Shown here: one piece after another, positions 8,808 through 16,068 of the stretch
Position numbering within the stretch: the stretch's first letter is position 1
How the letters are laid out: each line of letters begins with the position of its first letter
Source: Odoribacter splanchnicus DSM 20712
GTDB taxonomy: Bacteria; Bacteroidota; Bacteroidia; Bacteroidales; Marinifilaceae
Assembly: GCF_000190535.1 (NCBI RefSeq)
Contig: NC_015160.1
Span: 3,224,001 to 3,288,000, forward strand
Length of the DNA: 64,000 bases
Direction: 5' to 3'
Position numbers and translations under genes: made by a program
Notes under the pieces: model-generated
What the model was told of the DNA's origin: nothing
The model's database searches: none
Seen by the model: only the letters and a program-made list of their open reading frames with translations

Positions 8808-9902
8808 CTATTCGTTCATCACCTTTGTTTGCCGGTCGATGGAAGCTTGGTGAATCGCTTTGAAAACTTTTTCTAAAAACTCATTATCCAGTCCCGTCTC
8901 AGCTCCTTTGACAAACACCTTTTCCAGGATTTTATCCCAACGTCCGGGTTGCAGAATAGTAATATTATTTTGCTTTTTATATTTTCCGATTTCGTCGGAT
9001 ACCTTCATCCGCCGGGTCAATAGCTCCAATATATCGTTATCGATATCATCGATCTGCGCCCGCAATTCATCTATGTTTTCCTTGTATTCTATGTTTTCCG
9101 AATCTATATCCCGGATAATCAGTTTTCCTAAAATTTCCCGAAGAGAAGTCGGTGTGACTTGCTGTGCAGCATCACTCAAAGCTATTTCAGGACAAATATG
9201 GGATTCGATGATCAGTCCGTCGAACCCCAAATCCATCGCTTGCTGGGAAACTTCCTGAATATATTCCCGTTTACCTGAAATATGGCTTGGGTCACAAATC
9301 ATCAACATATCGGGAAAACGCCGTTTTATCTCGATAGGTAATTGCCACTGAGGAACATTGCGGTACTTGGATTTTACATAAGCAGAAAAACCCCGATGAA
9401 TCACACCGATTTTTTTCAGTCCTGCCATATTTAAGCGTTCCAAAGCACCGATCCAGAGTTCGACATCCGGATTGACAGGATTTTTCACTAAAACCGGAAT
9501 ATCGGTACCTTTTAAAGCGTCGGCTATTTCCTGCATAGCAAAAGGATTGGCAGAAGTACGTGCCCCGATCCACAACATATCCACGCCGGCTTTCAGAGCT
9601 TCGTACACATGTTTGACATTAGCTACTTCCGTAGAAATTTTCATTCCTAACTCACGCTGCACCCGCTTCATCCAGACTAATCCTTCGGAACCGACTCCCT
9701 CGAAACAATTCGGACGGGTACGGGGTTTCCAGATCCCTGCCCTCAAAACTTCCACTCCGGCGGCCTTCAAACCTTTGGCTGTTTCAAAAACTTGTTGTTC
9801 ACTCTCCGCACTGCAAGGTCCTGCAATAATAATAGGCTTAGTGGTATCTGTAAATAATCTCCAGTCCTCTACTTTTACCAAATCTAATTTTGTCGCTGTC
9901 AT
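8808..9902 (-). CDS. aroF: Bifunctional DAHP synthase / chorismate mutase
   Basis: Residues 1-260 are a class I-beta type DAHP synthase, which condenses phosphoenolpyruvate and erythrose-4-phosphate in the first shikimate-pathway step. Visible blocks are IIAGPCSAES, LRAGIWKPRTRPN, VWIGARTS-like (LWIGARTSANPF), VLVKNPVNPD, GVIHRGFS, and MICDPSHISGKR with metal-binding Cys/His residues. Residues 275-360 are an AroQ chorismate mutase (ELRAQIDDIDNDILELLTRRMKVSDEIGKYKKQN) that turns chorismate into prephenate. This fusion is the usual arrangement in Bacteroidales and explains why the neighbouring pheA lacks a mutase domain. It is the last gene of the four-gene operon. The symbol is by family convention; aroG would be equally defensible. 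Confidence 0.93.
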   Translation of the reverse strand: MTATKLDLVKVEDWRLFTDTTKPIIIAGPCSAESEQQVFETAKGLKAAGVEVLRAGIWKPRTRPNCFEGVGSEGLVWMKRVQRELGMKISTEVANVKHVYEALKAGVDMLWIGARTSANPFAMQEIADALKGTDIPVLVKNPVNPDVELWIGALERLNMAGLKKIGVIHRGFSAYVKSKYRNVPQWQLPIEIKRRFPDMLMICDPSHISGKREYIQEVSQQAMDLGFDGLIIESHICPEIALSDAAQQVTPTSLREILGKLIIRDIDSENIEYKENIDELRAQIDDIDNDILELLTRRMKVSDEIGKYKKQNNITILQPGRWDKILEKVFVKGAETGLDNEFLEKVFKAIHQASIDRQTKVMNE

Positions 9903-9935: not shown

Positions 9936-10775
9936 TTACCGGATGATCCTTTTTATTTTATTAGCCTTATGGATCAAGTCCTTCACTCCTTTTTCATCAT
10001 AATCTGCAATATGTTTTTTAAATTCCTGCAATTTTTCGATATAGGTATCTAAAACAGTCAATATATTCTCTTTATTCTGAGAGAATATCGGAGCCCACAT
10101 GTCTGCATTACTTTTAGCCAATCGTACCGTCGATGAAAAACCACCGGAAGCCAGGTCAAAGATATTCTTTTCATTCTTTTCTTTTTCCAAAACAGTCAAC
10201 GCAAGTGCAAAAGAAGTGATATGGGAAATATGGGAAATATAAGCCGTATGCATGTCATGATGTGCGGCCCGCATATATATCACCCTCATATTGAGGCAAT
10301 CATACATTTGCTTGACCAGTTCGACGGCTTGCATATACGAATCTTCAGCATTGCAAATAATGCCTGCCCGTCCGTCGAATAATCCGGGCAAAGCAGCCCA
10401 GGGACCCGAATATTCTGTCCCTGCCATGGGATGAGCAGCGACAAAATTCTTCCGGTTCGGATGATAACGAACCATATCGTTGATTTTTTCTTTCGTCGAA
10501 CAGACATCGGTCACTACCTGACGGTCCACCTTATCCAGTATATCCGGGATCATCCGGATAGCTATACTTACCGGCACAGCTACGACAATCATATCGCTCA
10601 TAGCAATACATTCTTCATAACTGACGATTTCGTCGACCAATCCCAATTCCTTCGCAGCCGAAGCATGCAAAGCATCCGCTTCAACCCCGACAACACGATC
10701 GGCAAAACCCCGGTTTTTCAAATCTACTGCCATAGAACCACCGATCAATCCAACTCCTATTATTCCAACTTGCAT
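9936..10775 (-). CDS. tyrA: Prephenate dehydrogenase
   Basis: A 279-residue NAD(P)-dependent enzyme that oxidatively decarboxylates prephenate to 4-hydroxyphenylpyruvate, the tyrosine branch. The Rossmann start is MQVGIIGVGLIGGSMAVDL with GxGxxG at 6-11. VVAVPVS and VTDVCSTKEKI follow, then the substrate-binding FVAAHPMAGTEYSGPWAA and the helical dimerisation domain with HHDMHTAYISHISHI. No ACT regulatory domain and no chorismate mutase domain are attached. The protein is short, as in other Bacteroidetes TyrA. The gene sits between the aminotransferase and the DAHP synthase-mutase gene, 33 bases from the latter. Confidence 0.93.
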   Translation of the reverse strand: MQVGIIGVGLIGGSMAVDLKNRGFADRVVGVEADALHASAAKELGLVDEIVSYEECIAMSDMIVVAVPVSIAIRMIPDILDKVDRQVVTDVCSTKEKINDMVRYHPNRKNFVAAHPMAGTEYSGPWAALPGLFDGRAGIICNAEDSYMQAVELVKQMYDCLNMRVIYMRAAHHDMHTAYISHISHITSFALALTVLEKEKNEKNIFDLASGGFSSTVRLAKSNADMWAPIFSQNKENILTVLDTYIEKLQEFKKHIADYDEKGVKDLIHKANKIKRIIR

Positions 10776-10811: not shown

Positions 10812-12005
10812 TCAACACCACGAACCATGTTTAAAATGACTCACATGTAAAACCCGGCGAATCCGTCCGGCAGCTTCACGTAATACCTCTTGTTTCGCAC
10901 ACAATGAAATCCGGATATAACGTTCGCCGTTACTTCCAAAAATAAAACCGGGAGTAATAAATACATGCGCTTTTTGCAAAATCATATCCGACAATTTTTC
11001 CCCACTCTCTTCCCGGTCATCGATCTTTCCCCACAAAAACATACCTCCGCTATGTTTATCGTATCTCACACCCAACAGATCGAAAATTTCTCCGGCCAAT
11101 TTCTGTCTTTCCCGGTATTCTGCATTCAATTGTGCATACCAATCGTCTTTTTGGGATAAAGCTTTCACAGCTGCCAATTGGAGCGGTTTGAACATACCCG
11201 AATCCATATTGCTTTTCACTTTCAACACCTGGGAAATGACATCTGCATCTCCGGCAATCATCCCGATTCTCCAACCCGACATATGATGTGCTTTACTCAG
11301 TGAGTTCAGTTCCACACAGCAGGTTTTCGCCCCATCGATACTCAAAATACTCAGTTGTTCATCATTTAATATAAAACTATAGGGATTATCATTACAGATC
11401 AAAATCCGGTGTTTCAAGCCAAACTCTACCAACCTTTCGTATAATGCCATCGTAGCTTTTGCTCCGGTAGGCATATTCGGATAATTTGTCCACATCATTT
11501 TTACCCTGGAAAGATCCCTGTTTTCCAACTGTTCAAAATCGGGCATCCATCCGGTTTCTTCCTTCAAATCATAAAGCACGATCCCGGCTTCTGCCAGTAA
11601 AGAAGCCGAGGAATAAGTGGGATATCCGGGATTAGGTACAAGCACTTGATCTCCTTTATTCAAAAAAGCCAGAGACAATAACAAAATTCCTTCTTTAGAA
11701 CCGGCCAAAGGTTGAATCTCCGTATCCGGATTCAAATCTACCCGATAATATTTCTTATACCAGGTAGCAAATCCTTCACGCAGTTCTTTTATTCCTTTAT
11801 AACTTTGATAAGCGTGATTACCTGGATGCTGAGCCTCTTTGATCAAAGTCAGGATAGCTTCCTCGGGTGGCATCCGGTCAGGGGCACCGATTCCCAGATT
11901 AATCACTTCGGCTCCTTGTCGGTTCATCAAATCAATCTCTTGTAATTTTTTTGAAAAATAGTATTCACTGACACTATTCGTTCTGTTTGCCGGTTTAATT
12001 ATCAT
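10812..12005 (-). CDS. Class I/II aminotransferase (probable aromatic or prephenate aminotransferase)
   Basis: A 397-residue fold-type I PLP enzyme. The signature blocks are INLGIGAPDRMPPEEAI near the N-terminus, the dinucleotide-like turn AGSKEGILLLSLAFL, NPGYPTYS, NYPNMPTGA (Asn contacting PLP), ICNDNPYSFI, and the Schiff-base Lys in SLSKAHHMSGWRIGM. It ends RYIRISLCAKQEV, with the substrate-carboxylate Arg. Its position between pheA and tyrA argues that it transaminates phenylpyruvate and 4-hydroxyphenylpyruvate to Phe and Tyr. Sequence alone does not exclude aspartate or LL-diaminopimelate-type substrates. The start MIIKPANRTNSVSEYYFSKK has the usual short N-terminal arm. Confidence 0.85.
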   Translation of the reverse strand: MIIKPANRTNSVSEYYFSKKLQEIDLMNRQGAEVINLGIGAPDRMPPEEAILTLIKEAQHPGNHAYQSYKGIKELREGFATWYKKYYRVDLNPDTEIQPLAGSKEGILLLSLAFLNKGDQVLVPNPGYPTYSSASLLAEAGIVLYDLKEETGWMPDFEQLENRDLSRVKMMWTNYPNMPTGAKATMALYERLVEFGLKHRILICNDNPYSFILNDEQLSILSIDGAKTCCVELNSLSKAHHMSGWRIGMIAGDADVISQVLKVKSNMDSGMFKPLQLAAVKALSQKDDWYAQLNAEYRERQKLAGEIFDLLGVRYDKHSGGMFLWGKIDDREESGEKLSDMILQKAHVFITPGFIFGSNGERYIRISLCAKQEVLREAAGRIRRVLHVSHFKHGSWC

Positions 12006-12044: not shown

Positions 12045-12863
12045 TCAACAATAACTTTTATATTCCCCCATCACTGTCAGTTCATCGACCAATGGTCTTA
12101 CAGCATTCATCGCTTCCAGATAATGTCCGTAATCATCGAATTTCAGATCCACATAAAAAAAATACTGCCATTCCTTCCCCGGTATAGGCAAGGATTGTAT
12201 TTTCGTCAGGTTAAGGTCATAAAAGGCAAATATGGAAAGTACCTGCGATAACCGACCTGTCTTATGAGGCAACGTAAAGCAAATCGAGGATTTATCGATA
12301 TCTTTCTCTGATACGGTAATATGGTCGTCCAGGATCAGAAAACGGGTGAAATTTTGCTTATGAGTCTCTATACTAGCCTGAAGAATCTCCAAACCGAATA
12401 ATTCTGCAGCCAATTCAGAAGCAATCGCACCGATCCGTCTTTGTCCGTTCCGCATTATATCGGCAGCACTTTTGGCTGTATCTTCCGATTCTACCAAACG
12501 GATATGTGGATATGATTTAAAAAATTCACGGGTCTGGGCTATAGCCATATAATGTGAATGCACTTCAGTAATCTCTTCTATAGTCTGCCCGGACAAAGCC
12601 ATCAGGTTTTGCTGAATCCGAAGGAATACCTCCCCTTTCACTTTGCGGGAATGTTTATGCAACAAAGAATAATTCGGTAATAATCCTCCTGCCACGGTAT
12701 TCTCGATAGCCATGATAGCTCCCGAAGCTTTTCCCTGATCCAAAGCAACAAACAAATCTTCAAAACTAAGACATTCACACACACCGATCTCATTTCCATA
12801 AAACAACCGGGCAGCTTGCTCGTGAAAACATCCGTGTACTCCTTGAATTGCAATTTTCGTCAT
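12045..12863 (-). CDS. pheA: Prephenate dehydratase
   Basis: A 272-residue monofunctional enzyme converting prephenate to phenylpyruvate. The catalytic domain opens IAIQGVHGCFHEQAARLFYG and contains GAIMAIENTVAGG (the EN(S/T) substrate block) and FTRFLIL with the catalytic Thr-Arg-Phe. Residues from about 190 form an ACT domain (SSICFTLPHKTGRLSQVLSIF, then NLTKIQSLPIPGKEWQYFFYVD), with the GxL and ESRP-like region used for phenylalanine feedback inhibition. No chorismate mutase domain is present. It is the first gene of the operon and lies directly downstream of the two leader peptides and terminators at 12893-13171. Confidence 0.94.
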   Translation of the reverse strand: MTKIAIQGVHGCFHEQAARLFYGNEIGVCECLSFEDLFVALDQGKASGAIMAIENTVAGGLLPNYSLLHKHSRKVKGEVFLRIQQNLMALSGQTIEEITEVHSHYMAIAQTREFFKSYPHIRLVESEDTAKSAADIMRNGQRRIGAIASELAAELFGLEILQASIETHKQNFTRFLILDDHITVSEKDIDKSSICFTLPHKTGRLSQVLSIFAFYDLNLTKIQSLPIPGKEWQYFFYVDLKFDDYGHYLEAMNAVRPLVDELTVMGEYKSYC

Positions 12864-12892: not shown

Positions 12893-12924
12893 CAATAAAA
12901 AACCCCGGACATTATGCCGGGGTT
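12893..12924 (-). terminator. Attenuator terminator 2 upstream of pheA
   Basis: On the minus strand an 8-bp stem, AACCCCGG / CCGGGGTT (12901-12908 with 12917-12924), closes an 8-base loop and is followed by TTTTTTATT. It lies 21 bases after the stop of the second leader peptide and 30 bases before the pheA start, the place of a transcription attenuator. Confidence 0.88.
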
Positions 12925-12945
12925 TATATTATTCCATTATTATTT

Positions 12946-13038
12946 TCAGGACAAAATACACAGCCTCCGGCTACTCTTCATAAAATAAAAGTAGAAGTAA
13001 AAATAAAACCGGCTGCTAAATCGAAAATACGTCGCCAT
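12946..13038 (-). CDS. Phe/Tyr leader peptide 2 (30 aa)
   Basis: A minus-strand ATG at 13038 opens a 30-codon frame ending TGA at 12946-12948. It contains twelve aromatic residues, including an uninterrupted alternating run FYFYFYFYF at residues 11-19 (five TTT/TAT pairs with TAC/TTC variants), plus MATYFRF at the start. No Trp is present. It lies between attenuator terminator 1 and terminator 2, 83 bases ahead of terminator 2's loop. This is the classic design of an attenuator leader peptide whose translation reads charged tRNA-Phe and tRNA-Tyr. It should have no function as a protein. The element GCCGG (12967-12971) could pair with the terminator's CCGGC. Confidence 0.85.
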   Translation of the reverse strand: MATYFRFSSRFYFYFYFYFMKSSRRLCILS

Positions 13039-13046
13039 CTTTGTCC

Positions 13047-13076
13047 AAATAAAAAAGCCCTGAGTGATCAGGGCTT
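13047..13076 (-). terminator. Attenuator terminator 1 upstream of pheA
   Basis: On the minus strand AAGCCCTGA and TCAGGGCTT (13055-13063 with 13068-13076) form a 9-bp perfect stem with a TCAC loop, followed by TTTTTTATTTG. A second copy of the 3' arm, AGGGCTT at 13108-13114, lies immediately after the first leader-peptide stop codon and can capture the 5' arm as an antiterminator. Confidence 0.9.
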
Positions 13077-13114
13077 ACTTTAATCCTATTTTTTAATCAT
13101 TACACGGAAGCCCT

Positions 13115-13171
13115 TTACTCTCTGCTAAAAAAGTAAAAATAAAAATAATATGCATTCCAAAATGATTTCAT
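13115..13171 (-). CDS. Phe/Tyr/Trp leader peptide 1 (18 aa)
   Basis: A minus-strand ATG at 13171 encodes MKSFWNAYYFYFYFFSRE and stops with TAA at 13115-13117. Ten of its 18 residues are aromatic (five Phe, four Tyr, one Trp). It begins about 18 bases after the predicted transcription start and is followed by the duplicated arm AGGGCTT and terminator 1. Position, length and codon content make it a ribosome-stalling leader for transcription attenuation of the pheA-aminotransferase-tyrA-DAHP synthase operon. It is too short for ordinary gene finding. Confidence 0.9.
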   Translation of the reverse strand: MKSFWNAYYFYFYFFSRE

Positions 13172-13195
13172 CGCTCTGTTTTTGTTTTGTGACGA

Positions 13196-13226
13196 CAAAT
13201 ATACAAACAAATCTATTTCTTGCAAA
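13196..13226 (-). promoter_or_regulatory. Promoter of the aromatic amino acid operon
   Basis: Reading the minus strand, TTTG (13223-13226) is followed after exactly 19 bases by TATATTTG (13196-13203), a full match to the Bacteroidetes housekeeping promoter (TTTG, 19-21 bases, TAnnTTTG). The transcript should begin near 13189, 18 bases before leader peptide 1. Confidence 0.8.
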
Positions 13227-13377: not shown

Positions 13378-16068
13378 ATGTCAGATCCTAAGACCTTATT
13401 CCTACTAGACGCCTATGCACTGATATACCGGTCGTATTATGCTTTTATCAATAATCCCCGGATTACCACCACAGGAATAAACACCTCCGCCACCTTTGGT
13501 TTTTGTAATTTTCTGATCGAATTATTAGAATTAGAAAAACCGACTCATATCGCAGTGATTTTCGATCCCGAAGGTCCCACTTTCCGGCACGAAATGTACA
13601 CACCTTATAAAGCACAACGTCCCCCGATGCCGGAAGATCTGAGAAAATCCATTCCTTATATAAAAAAAATTATCGCAGGTCTGGGTATTTCTTGTCTGGA
13701 TGCGCCGGGTTACGAAGCCGACGATTTTATCGGTACCCTGGCCAAAAGAGCGGAGAAAGAAGGTTATACCGTTTATATGATCACGCCGGATAAAGATTAT
13801 GCCCAGCTGGTCAGTGAAAAAGTTTTTATGTATAAACCCGGACGTTCAGGAAATAAATCGGAAGTCTGGGGTATTCCCGAAGTATTGGATCACTTCGGGA
13901 TCGAACGGGTGGATCAGGTCATCGATATTTTAGGACTGATGGGAGATACGGCGGACAATGTTCCGGGATGTTCCGGAATCGGCCCTAAAAGCGCTGCTGC
14001 CCTGGTCTATAAATATGGAGATATCGACGGAATATATGCCCATATCGATGAACTCAAAGGCAAACAACGGCAGAATCTGCTCGATTGCCAGCCAACCGTC
14101 CATTTGTCACGTACCCTGGTCACTATTTGTACCGAAGTTCCTACCGATATCACTCCCGAAGATCTTGAGAAGAAACATATCGATGTAAAAATTCTGGATC
14201 CTATTTTCAAAGAACTGGAACTCTTTTCATTGGTAAAACGGGTATTGAATACAGATATAGAAGAAGATACCTCAGAGAAATTGTCGGACATCAAAGTCAG
14301 TTATACCGACCATTCCCAAGATCCGGCTTCTTTACTGCAAAAACTGGAAGAAGCAGATCTTTATGCTTTATATGTTGTTTTCAAAAACGGGACTCTGTAT
14401 AATTCCTGGCCGACTCATCTGTGCTTCTCGACAAAACTTCACGAAGTAAGTTATATCAATCTGCCTAATGACAAAAACAAGGCATTGGAAATCATACTCC
14501 AATTCCAGGCCATTTTTGAAAACAAAAATAAAATTTTAATATCGGCCGATGTAAAAAACGATATCATTTGGTTGAAAAGAGCAGGTATCAAACTCAAAAA
14601 TGATATTTTCGACATTAAAATAGCCCATTATGTACTCCATCCGGACATATCACACGACTTAGGCCGGGTTGCTTTGGAATACCTCAATTATAAACTCTCG
14701 GGAAGTAAAAAAGAAGATCAGCAACTCACGCTCCAGTTCGATGAAGAAGCAGGGACGGAAGATAACGATTTTGCAGAGAAAACCGATGTTATCTTCCAGC
14801 TTCATGAAAAACTCTGTGACGATCTGCAACAGACCGGCTTACTGGCACTTTATAACAACATCGAAATGCCACTGGTTTTTGTACTCGCCGACATGGAATA
14901 CGAAGGAGTAAGCATCGATTGTAACGAACTTCAGTCCATTTCAAGCGAACTAAAAGAACGGATCGATATCATTGAAAAAGAAATCTATGAATTAGCTCAT
15001 CAGGAATTCAACATCAGTTCCCCCAAGCAATTGGGTGAAGTACTCTTCGATAAACTGAAAATCGACAGTAATCACAAAAAGACAAAATCCGGTCAATACA
15101 GTACTTCAGAACAAGTGCTTGTAAAATTAGAAGACGAACATCCCATTATCAATAAAATACTGGATTACCGGGGATTAAAAAAACTTTTGACGACATATGC
15201 AGAAGCACTTCCCAGTTTTATCGACCCGGGGACAGGAAAAATACACACTCATTTCAATCAGGCAGAAGCGGCAACCGGTCGTTTAAGCAGCCTGAACCCG
15301 AATCTGCAAAATATCCCTATCCGCACAGAAGAAGGCCGGAAAATCCGTAAGGCTTTCGTTACCGGTAATGACGACTATTTGTTTTTCTCAGCCGACTATT
15401 CCCAGGTCGAATTACGGTTGATGGCTCATTTAAGTCAGGATAAAGAATTGATTCATGCTTTCAATCACGGTATAGATGTACATACCGCTACAGCTTCAAA
15501 AATTTATCATGTCACCTTAGAGGAAGTAACTCCTGAAATGCGCCGCCGGGCTAAAACGGCTAATTTCGGTATCATATACGGTATATCTGCCTGGGGCTTG
15601 GCCGAAAGACTCCACATCAGCCGCAAAGAAGGCAAAGAATTGATCGACGGTTATTTCGATCTTTATCCAGGCGTGAAAAAATACATGGAAGAATCCGTCG
15701 AAAAAGCCAGAAAAAAAGAATTTGTCGAAACAATTATGGGCCGCAGACGTTATCTCCGGGACATAAACTCCCGGAATGCCGTAGTCAGAGGGATGGCGGA
15801 ACGAAATGCCATCAATGCTCCGATACAGGGATCGGCTGCCGATATTATAAAAATGGCTATGATCTGTATCCAAAAACGCATTCAGGAAGAAGGATTGATG
15901 TCCAGAATGATCATTCAAGTTCATGACGAACTCAATTTCAAATGCCATAAATCCGAACAATATCTCCTGAAAAGCCTGGTGACGAATTGTATGGAGCATG
16001 TAATAAAACTCTCTGTGCCTCTAACGGTTAGTACAGGATTCGGAAACAATTGGTATGAAGCACATTGA
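13378..16068 (+). CDS. polA: DNA polymerase I
   Basis: An 896-residue family A polymerase for Okazaki fragment processing and repair. Residues 1-290 are the 5'-3' exonuclease (YEADDFIGTLA, ITPDKDYAQLV, GLMGDTADNVPGCSGIGPKSA). The polymerase domain carries motif A DYSQVELRLMAHL (Asp673), motif B RRRAKTANFGIIYG, and motif C IQVHDE (His849-Glu851). The intermediate domain is odd. Where the proofreading site normally has a DxE motif the sequence reads DLYALYVVFKNG (327-338), with no DxE, although the Exo II-like Asp395 and the Exo III-like Asp412 remain. Proofreading is therefore probably absent or weak. The gene follows divergently from the aromatic operon's leader. Confidence 0.96.
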   Translation: MSDPKTLFLLDAYALIYRSYYAFINNPRITTTGINTSATFGFCNFLIELLELEKPTHIAVIFDPEGPTFRHEMYTPYKAQRPPMPEDLRKSIPYIKKIIAGLGISCLDAPGYEADDFIGTLAKRAEKEGYTVYMITPDKDYAQLVSEKVFMYKPGRSGNKSEVWGIPEVLDHFGIERVDQVIDILGLMGDTADNVPGCSGIGPKSAAALVYKYGDIDGIYAHIDELKGKQRQNLLDCQPTVHLSRTLVTICTEVPTDITPEDLEKKHIDVKILDPIFKELELFSLVKRVLNTDIEEDTSEKLSDIKVSYTDHSQDPASLLQKLEEADLYALYVVFKNGTLYNSWPTHLCFSTKLHEVSYINLPNDKNKALEIILQFQAIFENKNKILISADVKNDIIWLKRAGIKLKNDIFDIKIAHYVLHPDISHDLGRVALEYLNYKLSGSKKEDQQLTLQFDEEAGTEDNDFAEKTDVIFQLHEKLCDDLQQTGLLALYNNIEMPLVFVLADMEYEGVSIDCNELQSISSELKERIDIIEKEIYELAHQEFNISSPKQLGEVLFDKLKIDSNHKKTKSGQYSTSEQVLVKLEDEHPIINKILDYRGLKKLLTTYAEALPSFIDPGTGKIHTHFNQAEAATGRLSSLNPNLQNIPIRTEEGRKIRKAFVTGNDDYLFFSADYSQVELRLMAHLSQDKELIHAFNHGIDVHTATASKIYHVTLEEVTPEMRRRAKTANFGIIYGISAWGLAERLHISRKEGKELIDGYFDLYPGVKKYMEESVEKARKKEFVETIMGRRRYLRDINSRNAVVRGMAERNAINAPIQGSAADIIKMAMICIQKRIQEEGLMSRMIIQVHDELNFKCHKSEQYLLKSLVTNCMEHVIKLSVPLTVSTGFGNNWYEAH

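Follow-up and report, generated by a model that had tools for sequence, protein, structure and literature searches.

Two predicted Phe/Tyr leader-peptide attenuators in series before the pheA operon of Odoribacter splanchnicus and their distribution in Bacteroidota

Why would one operon for phenylalanine and tyrosine biosynthesis be preceded by two leader peptides, each with a run of codons for the end products of the operon and each followed by a terminator? The question is raised by the pheA locus of Odoribacter splanchnicus DSM 20712, which lies in a stretch of 64,000 nucleotides that was analysed as a whole and is called the window here. A preliminary description of this locus had proposed two tandem Phe/Tyr leader-peptide attenuators ahead of pheA, and we ask here whether relatives, controls and predicted RNA structures agree with that proposal.

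Anatomy of the leader and the operon

On the minus strand, the sequence reads in the order promoter, leader ORF1, terminator T1, leader ORF2, terminator T2 and pheA. The promoter (13196-13226), read from the sequence, is made up of TTTG (13226-13223), a 19-nt spacer and TATATTTG (13203-13196), an arrangement (TTTG-N19-TATATTTG) that fits the Bacteroidota promoter consensus. Its -7 box is aligned in six of six genomes of the nearest group, by which we mean the pheA-bearing genomes of g1 and g13, the two nearest genera found, and both gates are present in all six. ORF1 (13115-13171, minus strand) encodes the peptide MKSFWNAYYFYFYFFSRE, with a run that is kept in 6/6 group genomes. Immediately 3' of its stop codon lies the antiterminator strand of gate 1, AGGGCTT (13108-13114, minus strand), which pairs with AAGCCCT of T1 (13051-13076, minus strand; hairpin 13076-13055, U-run to 13051, -14.3 kcal/mol). 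ORF2 (12946-13038, minus strand), which starts 12 nt behind the U-run of T1 and encodes the peptide MATYFRFSSRFYFYFYFYFMKSSRRLCILS, is likewise kept in 6/6 group genomes. The antiterminator strand of gate 2, CCGGAGG (12964-12970, minus strand), is found within ORF2, in its Arg-Arg codons, and pairs with one bulge to CCCCGG of T2 (12897-12924, minus strand; hairpin 12924-12901, U-run to 12897, -14.9 kcal/mol).

Each leader thus has a Phe/Tyr codon run that contains both Phe and Tyr codons, and in both gates the strand that competes for the 5' arm of the terminator lies downstream of this run. Two short ORFs with codons for Phe and Tyr precede the Phe/Tyr genes, with an intrinsic terminator, T1 or T2, between each leader ORF and the first gene. 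This anatomy bears out the tandem attenuators of the preliminary description, whose coordinates are correct to within a few bases, and its main attenuator interpretation is right as far as sequence goes.

Downstream, four genes follow on the minus strand with spacings of 33 to 39 nt: pheA, prephenate dehydratase (12045-12863; Pfam PF00800), a class I/II aminotransferase (10812-12005; PF00155), tyrA, prephenate dehydrogenase (9936-10775; PF02153 and PF20463, with NF006307 above cut-off), and a DAHP synthase fused to chorismate mutase (8808-9902; PF00793 and PF01817), for which the best NCBIfam matches are DAHP synthases below their cut-offs. The Pfam matches uphold the earlier statement that the downstream Phe/Tyr genes and the DAHP synthase fit the logic of the leader. 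The DAHP synthase of the operon is the only complete one found in the genome; the remaining PF00793 matches belong to a KDO8P synthase and to a truncated hybrid, and nothing in the genome matches PF01474. As a side observation, a 345-aa frame at L315:847-1881 (minus strand; G000:C1 near 2302729) consists of an N-terminal fragment of a DAHP synthase (residues 57-127) followed by a chorismatase part of the Rid/FkbO-like kind. The upstream neighbour of the leader, named by eye from the sequence, is polA, which lies on the opposite strand with its start at 13378.

Chance controls, conservation and distribution

We searched for gates with a finder that requires a short ORF beginning with ATG, in it an aromatic run of either five Phe/Tyr among eight codons or four consecutive aromatic codons, and behind it an intrinsic terminator with a folding energy of -8 kcal/mol or lower; the rule of four consecutive aromatic codons is a loosening that was added once, after relatives had been seen and before the controls were run. 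Upstream regions of pheA were compiled from 179 genomes of Bacteroidales, among the matches listed (183 matching of 392), with the exclusion of G225 and G184 (near contig ends), of G224 (stops inside) and of G285, which nearly duplicates G211. Of these regions, 177 are long enough (L011 and L139 are too short), and the sample spans 88 genera and 48 families.

One explanation of these features would be that the aromatic runs simply reflect T-rich DNA, or that they belong to small functional proteins, with the hairpins as ordinary terminators. The runs are indeed T-rich, and UUU and UAU codons easily arise in AT-rich DNA. Against this, the finder returned no gate in dinucleotide shuffles of the pheA upstream regions (0/885) and none in flanking real windows (0/1452), results on which we reject chance or T-richness as the origin of the gates; it also found none on the reverse strands of the upstream regions (0/177) and none elsewhere in the 64-kb window (500-nt tiling, both strands). 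Seven-codon Phe/Tyr runs (pattern TWY x7) occur at few places in the genome, among them a TTC repeat tract near 2427270-2427818. At four other such places, read by eye, no short leader ORF was seen, and the runs there either lie within genes (antisense or out of frame), belong to the reading frame of a membrane protein, or are of low complexity. Furthermore, T1 ends no upstream gene on its own strand, because polA diverges from 13378, and the leader peptides differ strongly between families, save for their aromatic content.

The codons of the runs speak to the same point. Among four genomes of the same genus, six of the eight codons of the ORF1 run vary, all of them synonymously, and this restriction to synonymous change indicates selection for the amino acids in ORF1, contrary to what a by-product of base composition would lead one to expect. 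With these observations, we regard T-rich DNA or small proteins as a hardly credible source of the gates. In the ORF2 run, three of nine codons vary (one synonymously, one by a change from Tyr to Asp in a single genome and one from Phe to Tyr), and the block TTC TAC TTT TAT is identical in the six group genomes, in all of which it makes up the 5' strand of a hairpin of eight pairs that spans the run. The ORF2 run seems to be constrained at the RNA level as well.

Across the 177 compiled regions, again among the matches listed, strict gates number none in 24, one in 111 and two in 42, such that 153 have at least one gate. Two gates are found in 10 of the 48 families and 18 of the 88 genera of this compilation. 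The 24 regions without a strict gate include five that gain one when GTG/TTG starts and a cut of -7 kcal are allowed, and several more that have an aromatic ORF and no detected terminator. The preliminary description had proposed a comparison of relatives as a check; the aromatic runs are kept in relatives, and the opposite outcome, runs that are not conserved, is absent. It had also called the arrangement unusual for a Bacteroidales genome; as a statement on rarity, this is incorrect for the single gate (153/177) and goes too far for the pair (42/177). L006, which groups with the g1 and g13 genomes in the tree, has one gate only. In several genera of family f1 (L016-L019, L021, L025, L026, L028, L029, L141, L142, L144-L146), we observe nearly Phe-only runs in both leaders and a short first leader of the RFFFFS type.

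Outside Bacteroidales, a Phe/Tyr leader gate stands before pheA in all 27 scored regions of a phylum sample (L284-L312), with two gates in L285 and one gate each in the Flavobacteriaceae regions; the sample holds the 29 best of 258 matches, two of which are genomes already counted, and it is narrow, with 13 of the 27 from one genus. A tree of 65 pheA proteins (loci with a whole pheA; quick search, with long-branch warnings) requires at least eight changes of the two-gate state, and five of these changes are forced by strongly supported branches; gain and loss of the second gate cannot be told apart from this tree. More than two gates were not found in any of the 64 regions with over 900 nt upstream.

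Recent duplication was considered as the source of the gate pair and rejected, since similarity behind the run averages 16.2 within a genome, compared with 14.7 for other families and 14.0 for shuffles. Whole-gate similarity averages 26.8 in the same genome, 21.9 against gates of other families and 17.4 for shuffles, and shared codon runs may account for the higher values. As an exception, the gates at L281 (G247, upstream of pheA) have a post-run likeness of 46, compared with 18 for other pairs, which suggests that this particular pair is a recent duplication.

Pairings, folding and the proposed mechanism

The pairing of the antiterminator strand with its terminator arm is matched by at most 5 of 100 shuffles in 96/111 single gates, 30/42 first gates and 39/42 second gates, and in the nearest group by the same test in 6/6 first and 6/6 second gates. 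An earlier test with shorter arms gave weak results, above all for first gates (12/42), and with the longer arms 8/17 first gates outside family f1 pass. In single gates, own terminator arms pair better than the arms of other families (-14.53 versus -9.13 kcal/mol), as would be expected if both strands change together.

Folds of the nascent RNA point in the same direction. When the RNA is folded up to the middle of the terminator hairpin with a ribosome in mid-run, the antiterminator forms in 12/12 group gates; when folds start just behind the stop codon, as with a ribosome at the stop, the terminator forms in 12/12. In these folds, antiterminator and terminator exclude each other and a stalled ribosome frees the antiterminator, with reservations that concern the short-arm test and the whole terminator: when the whole terminator is included and folding starts downstream of the run, the terminator beats the antiterminator in both gates of this genome. 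Complete terminators thus out-fold antiterminators at equilibrium, and the switch must therefore be kinetic. The antiterminator is also the favoured fold of nascent RNA when no ribosome is placed on it. A protector hairpin is seen in 0/6 first and 3/6 second gates of the group, 25/111 single gates, 8/36 other first gates and 5/36 other second gates, and a classical protector hairpin appears poorly supported by these sequences. We do not claim termination of an untranslated leader, because the protector is poorly supported and ribosome-free RNA favours the antiterminator. In gate 2, the strand ends at least 14 nt before the stop codon, and a ribosome at the stop would therefore cover it only partly.

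Could it be that only one of the two gates regulates, with the other as a leftover, or with gate 2 under its own promoter and the gates as alternatives and not in series? That a single gate suffices in most relatives (111/177, among the matches listed), that gate number is labile on the 65-protein tree (at least eight changes, five of them forced) and that the pairing evidence is weaker for first than for second gates would all fit such a reading. It is, however, difficult to reconcile with the six group genomes, which keep both gates and their pairings, and with the distribution of promoter motifs. The full motif TTG-N18-20-TAnnTTTG stands before the first leader in 75/153 gated regions (1.05 expected) and between the ORF1 and ORF2 starts in 0/42 two-gate regions (0.8 expected). 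TAnnTTTG alone is found before ORF1 in 31/42 two-gate regions (5.2 expected), between the two ORF starts in 1/42 (7.2 expected) and between T1 and ORF2, where the median gap is 22 nt, in 0/42 (1.9 expected). Given the lack of a promoter motif between the gates, we reject, at the level of sequence, a promoter belonging to gate 2, and both gates apparently lie in series on one transcript. We therefore consider regulation by one gate only to be unlikely.

The reading that we prefer, and hold to be very probable from these sequence features, is that of two serial ribosome-mediated attenuators on one leader RNA, both of which would sense charged tRNA-Phe and tRNA-Tyr. When the leader is freely translated, the ribosome would cover or sweep past the antiterminator strand, the terminator would form and RNA polymerase would stop. 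When the ribosome is held on the Phe/Tyr codons, the antiterminator strand would be free to pair with the emerging 5' arm of the terminator before the 3' arm is made, and the polymerase would continue. Translation, stalling, termination, the kinetic race and any gain in tightness or steepness from a second gate are what we infer here. Both gates must be passed to reach pheA, and read-through would therefore be the product of the two. For independent gates it would equal Q1 times Q2, such that sensitivities would add and basal leaks would multiply, which is arithmetic on the assumption of independence; the steeper response put forward in the preliminary description would follow from it on the same assumption. 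Sensitivity is used here in the sense of PMC1183508, where it is the ratio of the relative change in Q to the relative change in supply.

A further question is whether the first gate reports another signal, for example tryptophan, with the two gates integrating different cues as in Salmonella mgtCBR; the preliminary description had likewise suggested that gate 1 could sense Trp. Leader 1 does contain a Trp codon here, no complete DAHP synthase was found outside the operon, trpA is present in the genome, and Trp codons occur in 17/42 first leaders and 25/42 second leaders of two-gate regions. Yet the Trp codon of leader 1 is found in only 3/6 group genomes, and the stretch in which it lies is, when folded without a ribosome, base-paired to the antiterminator region. 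Moreover, leader 2 has no Trp codon and both serial gates must open, and a shortage of Trp alone could therefore not open the operon. The Trp suggestion finds no support at this locus, and a different signal at the first gate is very improbable; judging from the leaders of the other two-gate regions, Trp may matter in other lineages. No Trp-rich leader with a terminator was seen near trpFA in the 10 kb read. Upstream of trpF-trpA, at L317:2321-9979 (minus strand; G000:C1 about 937300-945000), we observe a strong terminator, behind which lie a DNA methyltransferase of the D12 class, a reverse transcriptase similar to defence RTs and three frames that match no Pfam family, and the trp genes look as if they had been split from the rest by an island.

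Gate designs and comparison with known systems

With respect to their construction, gates can be divided into class S, in which the antiterminator strand starts behind the stop codon, and class L, in which it starts inside the leader frame. Single gates comprise 43 S and 68 L, first gates 34 S and 8 L, and second gates 1 S and 41 L, counts that take in all gates and are inflated by related genomes, yet show an order that holds across families. Pairs run S then L in 34/42 cases (seven families), L then L in seven (three families) and L then S in one; the pair in this window is S then L. When only well-supported pairings are counted, first gates are 26 S and 4 L, and second gates 1 S and 38 L. 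We are evenly divided on the wider proposition that a double-gated attenuator has been gained or lost repeatedly in Bacteroidota, with two differently built gates, S before L, that read a single amino-acid signal one after the other; such a pair would multiply read-through probabilities, cut leakage and sharpen the response of an operon that in this genome contains the only complete DAHP synthase found.

The closest familiar system is the proteobacterial pheA leader (pheL), in which a short leader rich in Phe is combined with an antiterminator and an intrinsic terminator. The locus described here shares this layout of short leader, antiterminator and intrinsic terminator before pheA with pheL (Rfam RF01859, Phe_leader), and differs from it by having two gates and Tyr codons beside the Phe codons. 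Phe_leader is also the best-scoring Rfam family here, with 37.2 bits at 13164-13049 and 24.8 bits at 13016-12894, both below the gathering score of 55, and the evidently unrelated GcvB nearly equals it by E-value. No known Rfam element is present in the window at the gathering level. Together with the distribution of gates, this points to a widespread pheA leader element in the phylum that falls below every Rfam gathering score in this window. The Bacteroid-trp RNA motif (RF01692), which contains a Trp leader peptide, belongs to another pathway than the pheA gates, and its covariance model has 0 matches in this genome, with a control Bacteroides genome positive. It has been described as a candidate cis-regulatory RNA in Bacteroidetes (PMC2864571).

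Within the same bacterial order, Bacteroides thetaiotaomicron has a putative attenuator, in print since 2005 (PMC1173090, Table 7), ahead of pheA > hisHb > aroA-aroQ > tyrA, an operon with the same gene set and the same type of gene order. This attenuator comes from a database of predictions, and the passages on it mention no leader peptide and indicate no double gate (PMC1173090). The same paper gives two attenuator units for the aromatic supraoperon of Streptococcus pneumoniae, which its table places before different genes (PMC1173090). The transcriptome paper on B. thetaiotaomicron mentions that some long 5' UTRs contain sORFs that recall leader peptides (PMC7366714), and in Acholeplasma a Phe-coding uORF motif has been proposed before aroF (PMC8632094). 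In Flavobacterium psychrophilum, thus in the same phylum and before the same gene, a structured 5' element without an Rfam match precedes pheA, and strong clues for leader-peptide attenuation before amino-acid operons are reported; unlike in the window, the main-text section on this element describes no tandem gates (PMC9723704).

In terms of serial architecture, the nearest parallel is the Salmonella mgtCBR leader, in which tandem attenuators respond to two signals and which its authors call a "singular example" (PMC3641672). It too has two leader ORFs that follow each other in a single leader RNA, each in an attenuator, and the attenuator with mgtP (Pro codons) is ribosome mediated and responds to amino acid supply (PMC3641672). 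It differs in that the signals are ATP and proline, the effects are additive, no intrinsic terminators are involved and the genes do not serve biosynthesis of the sensed amino acid (PMC3641672). Of the two hallmarks of mgtCBR, the serial attenuators are found here in the sequence and the two different signals are not, both runs being Phe/Tyr. We recognised no two same-signal leader-peptide attenuators in series in the literature searched, chiefly freely accessible papers. A comparative study by Vitreschak and co-workers from 2004 is said to include attenuators in Bacteroidetes/Chlorobi, and Lopatovskaya 2010 reportedly treats attenuation in bacteria; one or the other may describe pheA leaders of Bacteroidota. 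Attenuation is a textbook mechanism that is known mainly with a single gate, and with a natural series of one- and two-gate versions of one operon, the benefit of a second gate (lower leak, steeper response, robustness) becomes directly testable.
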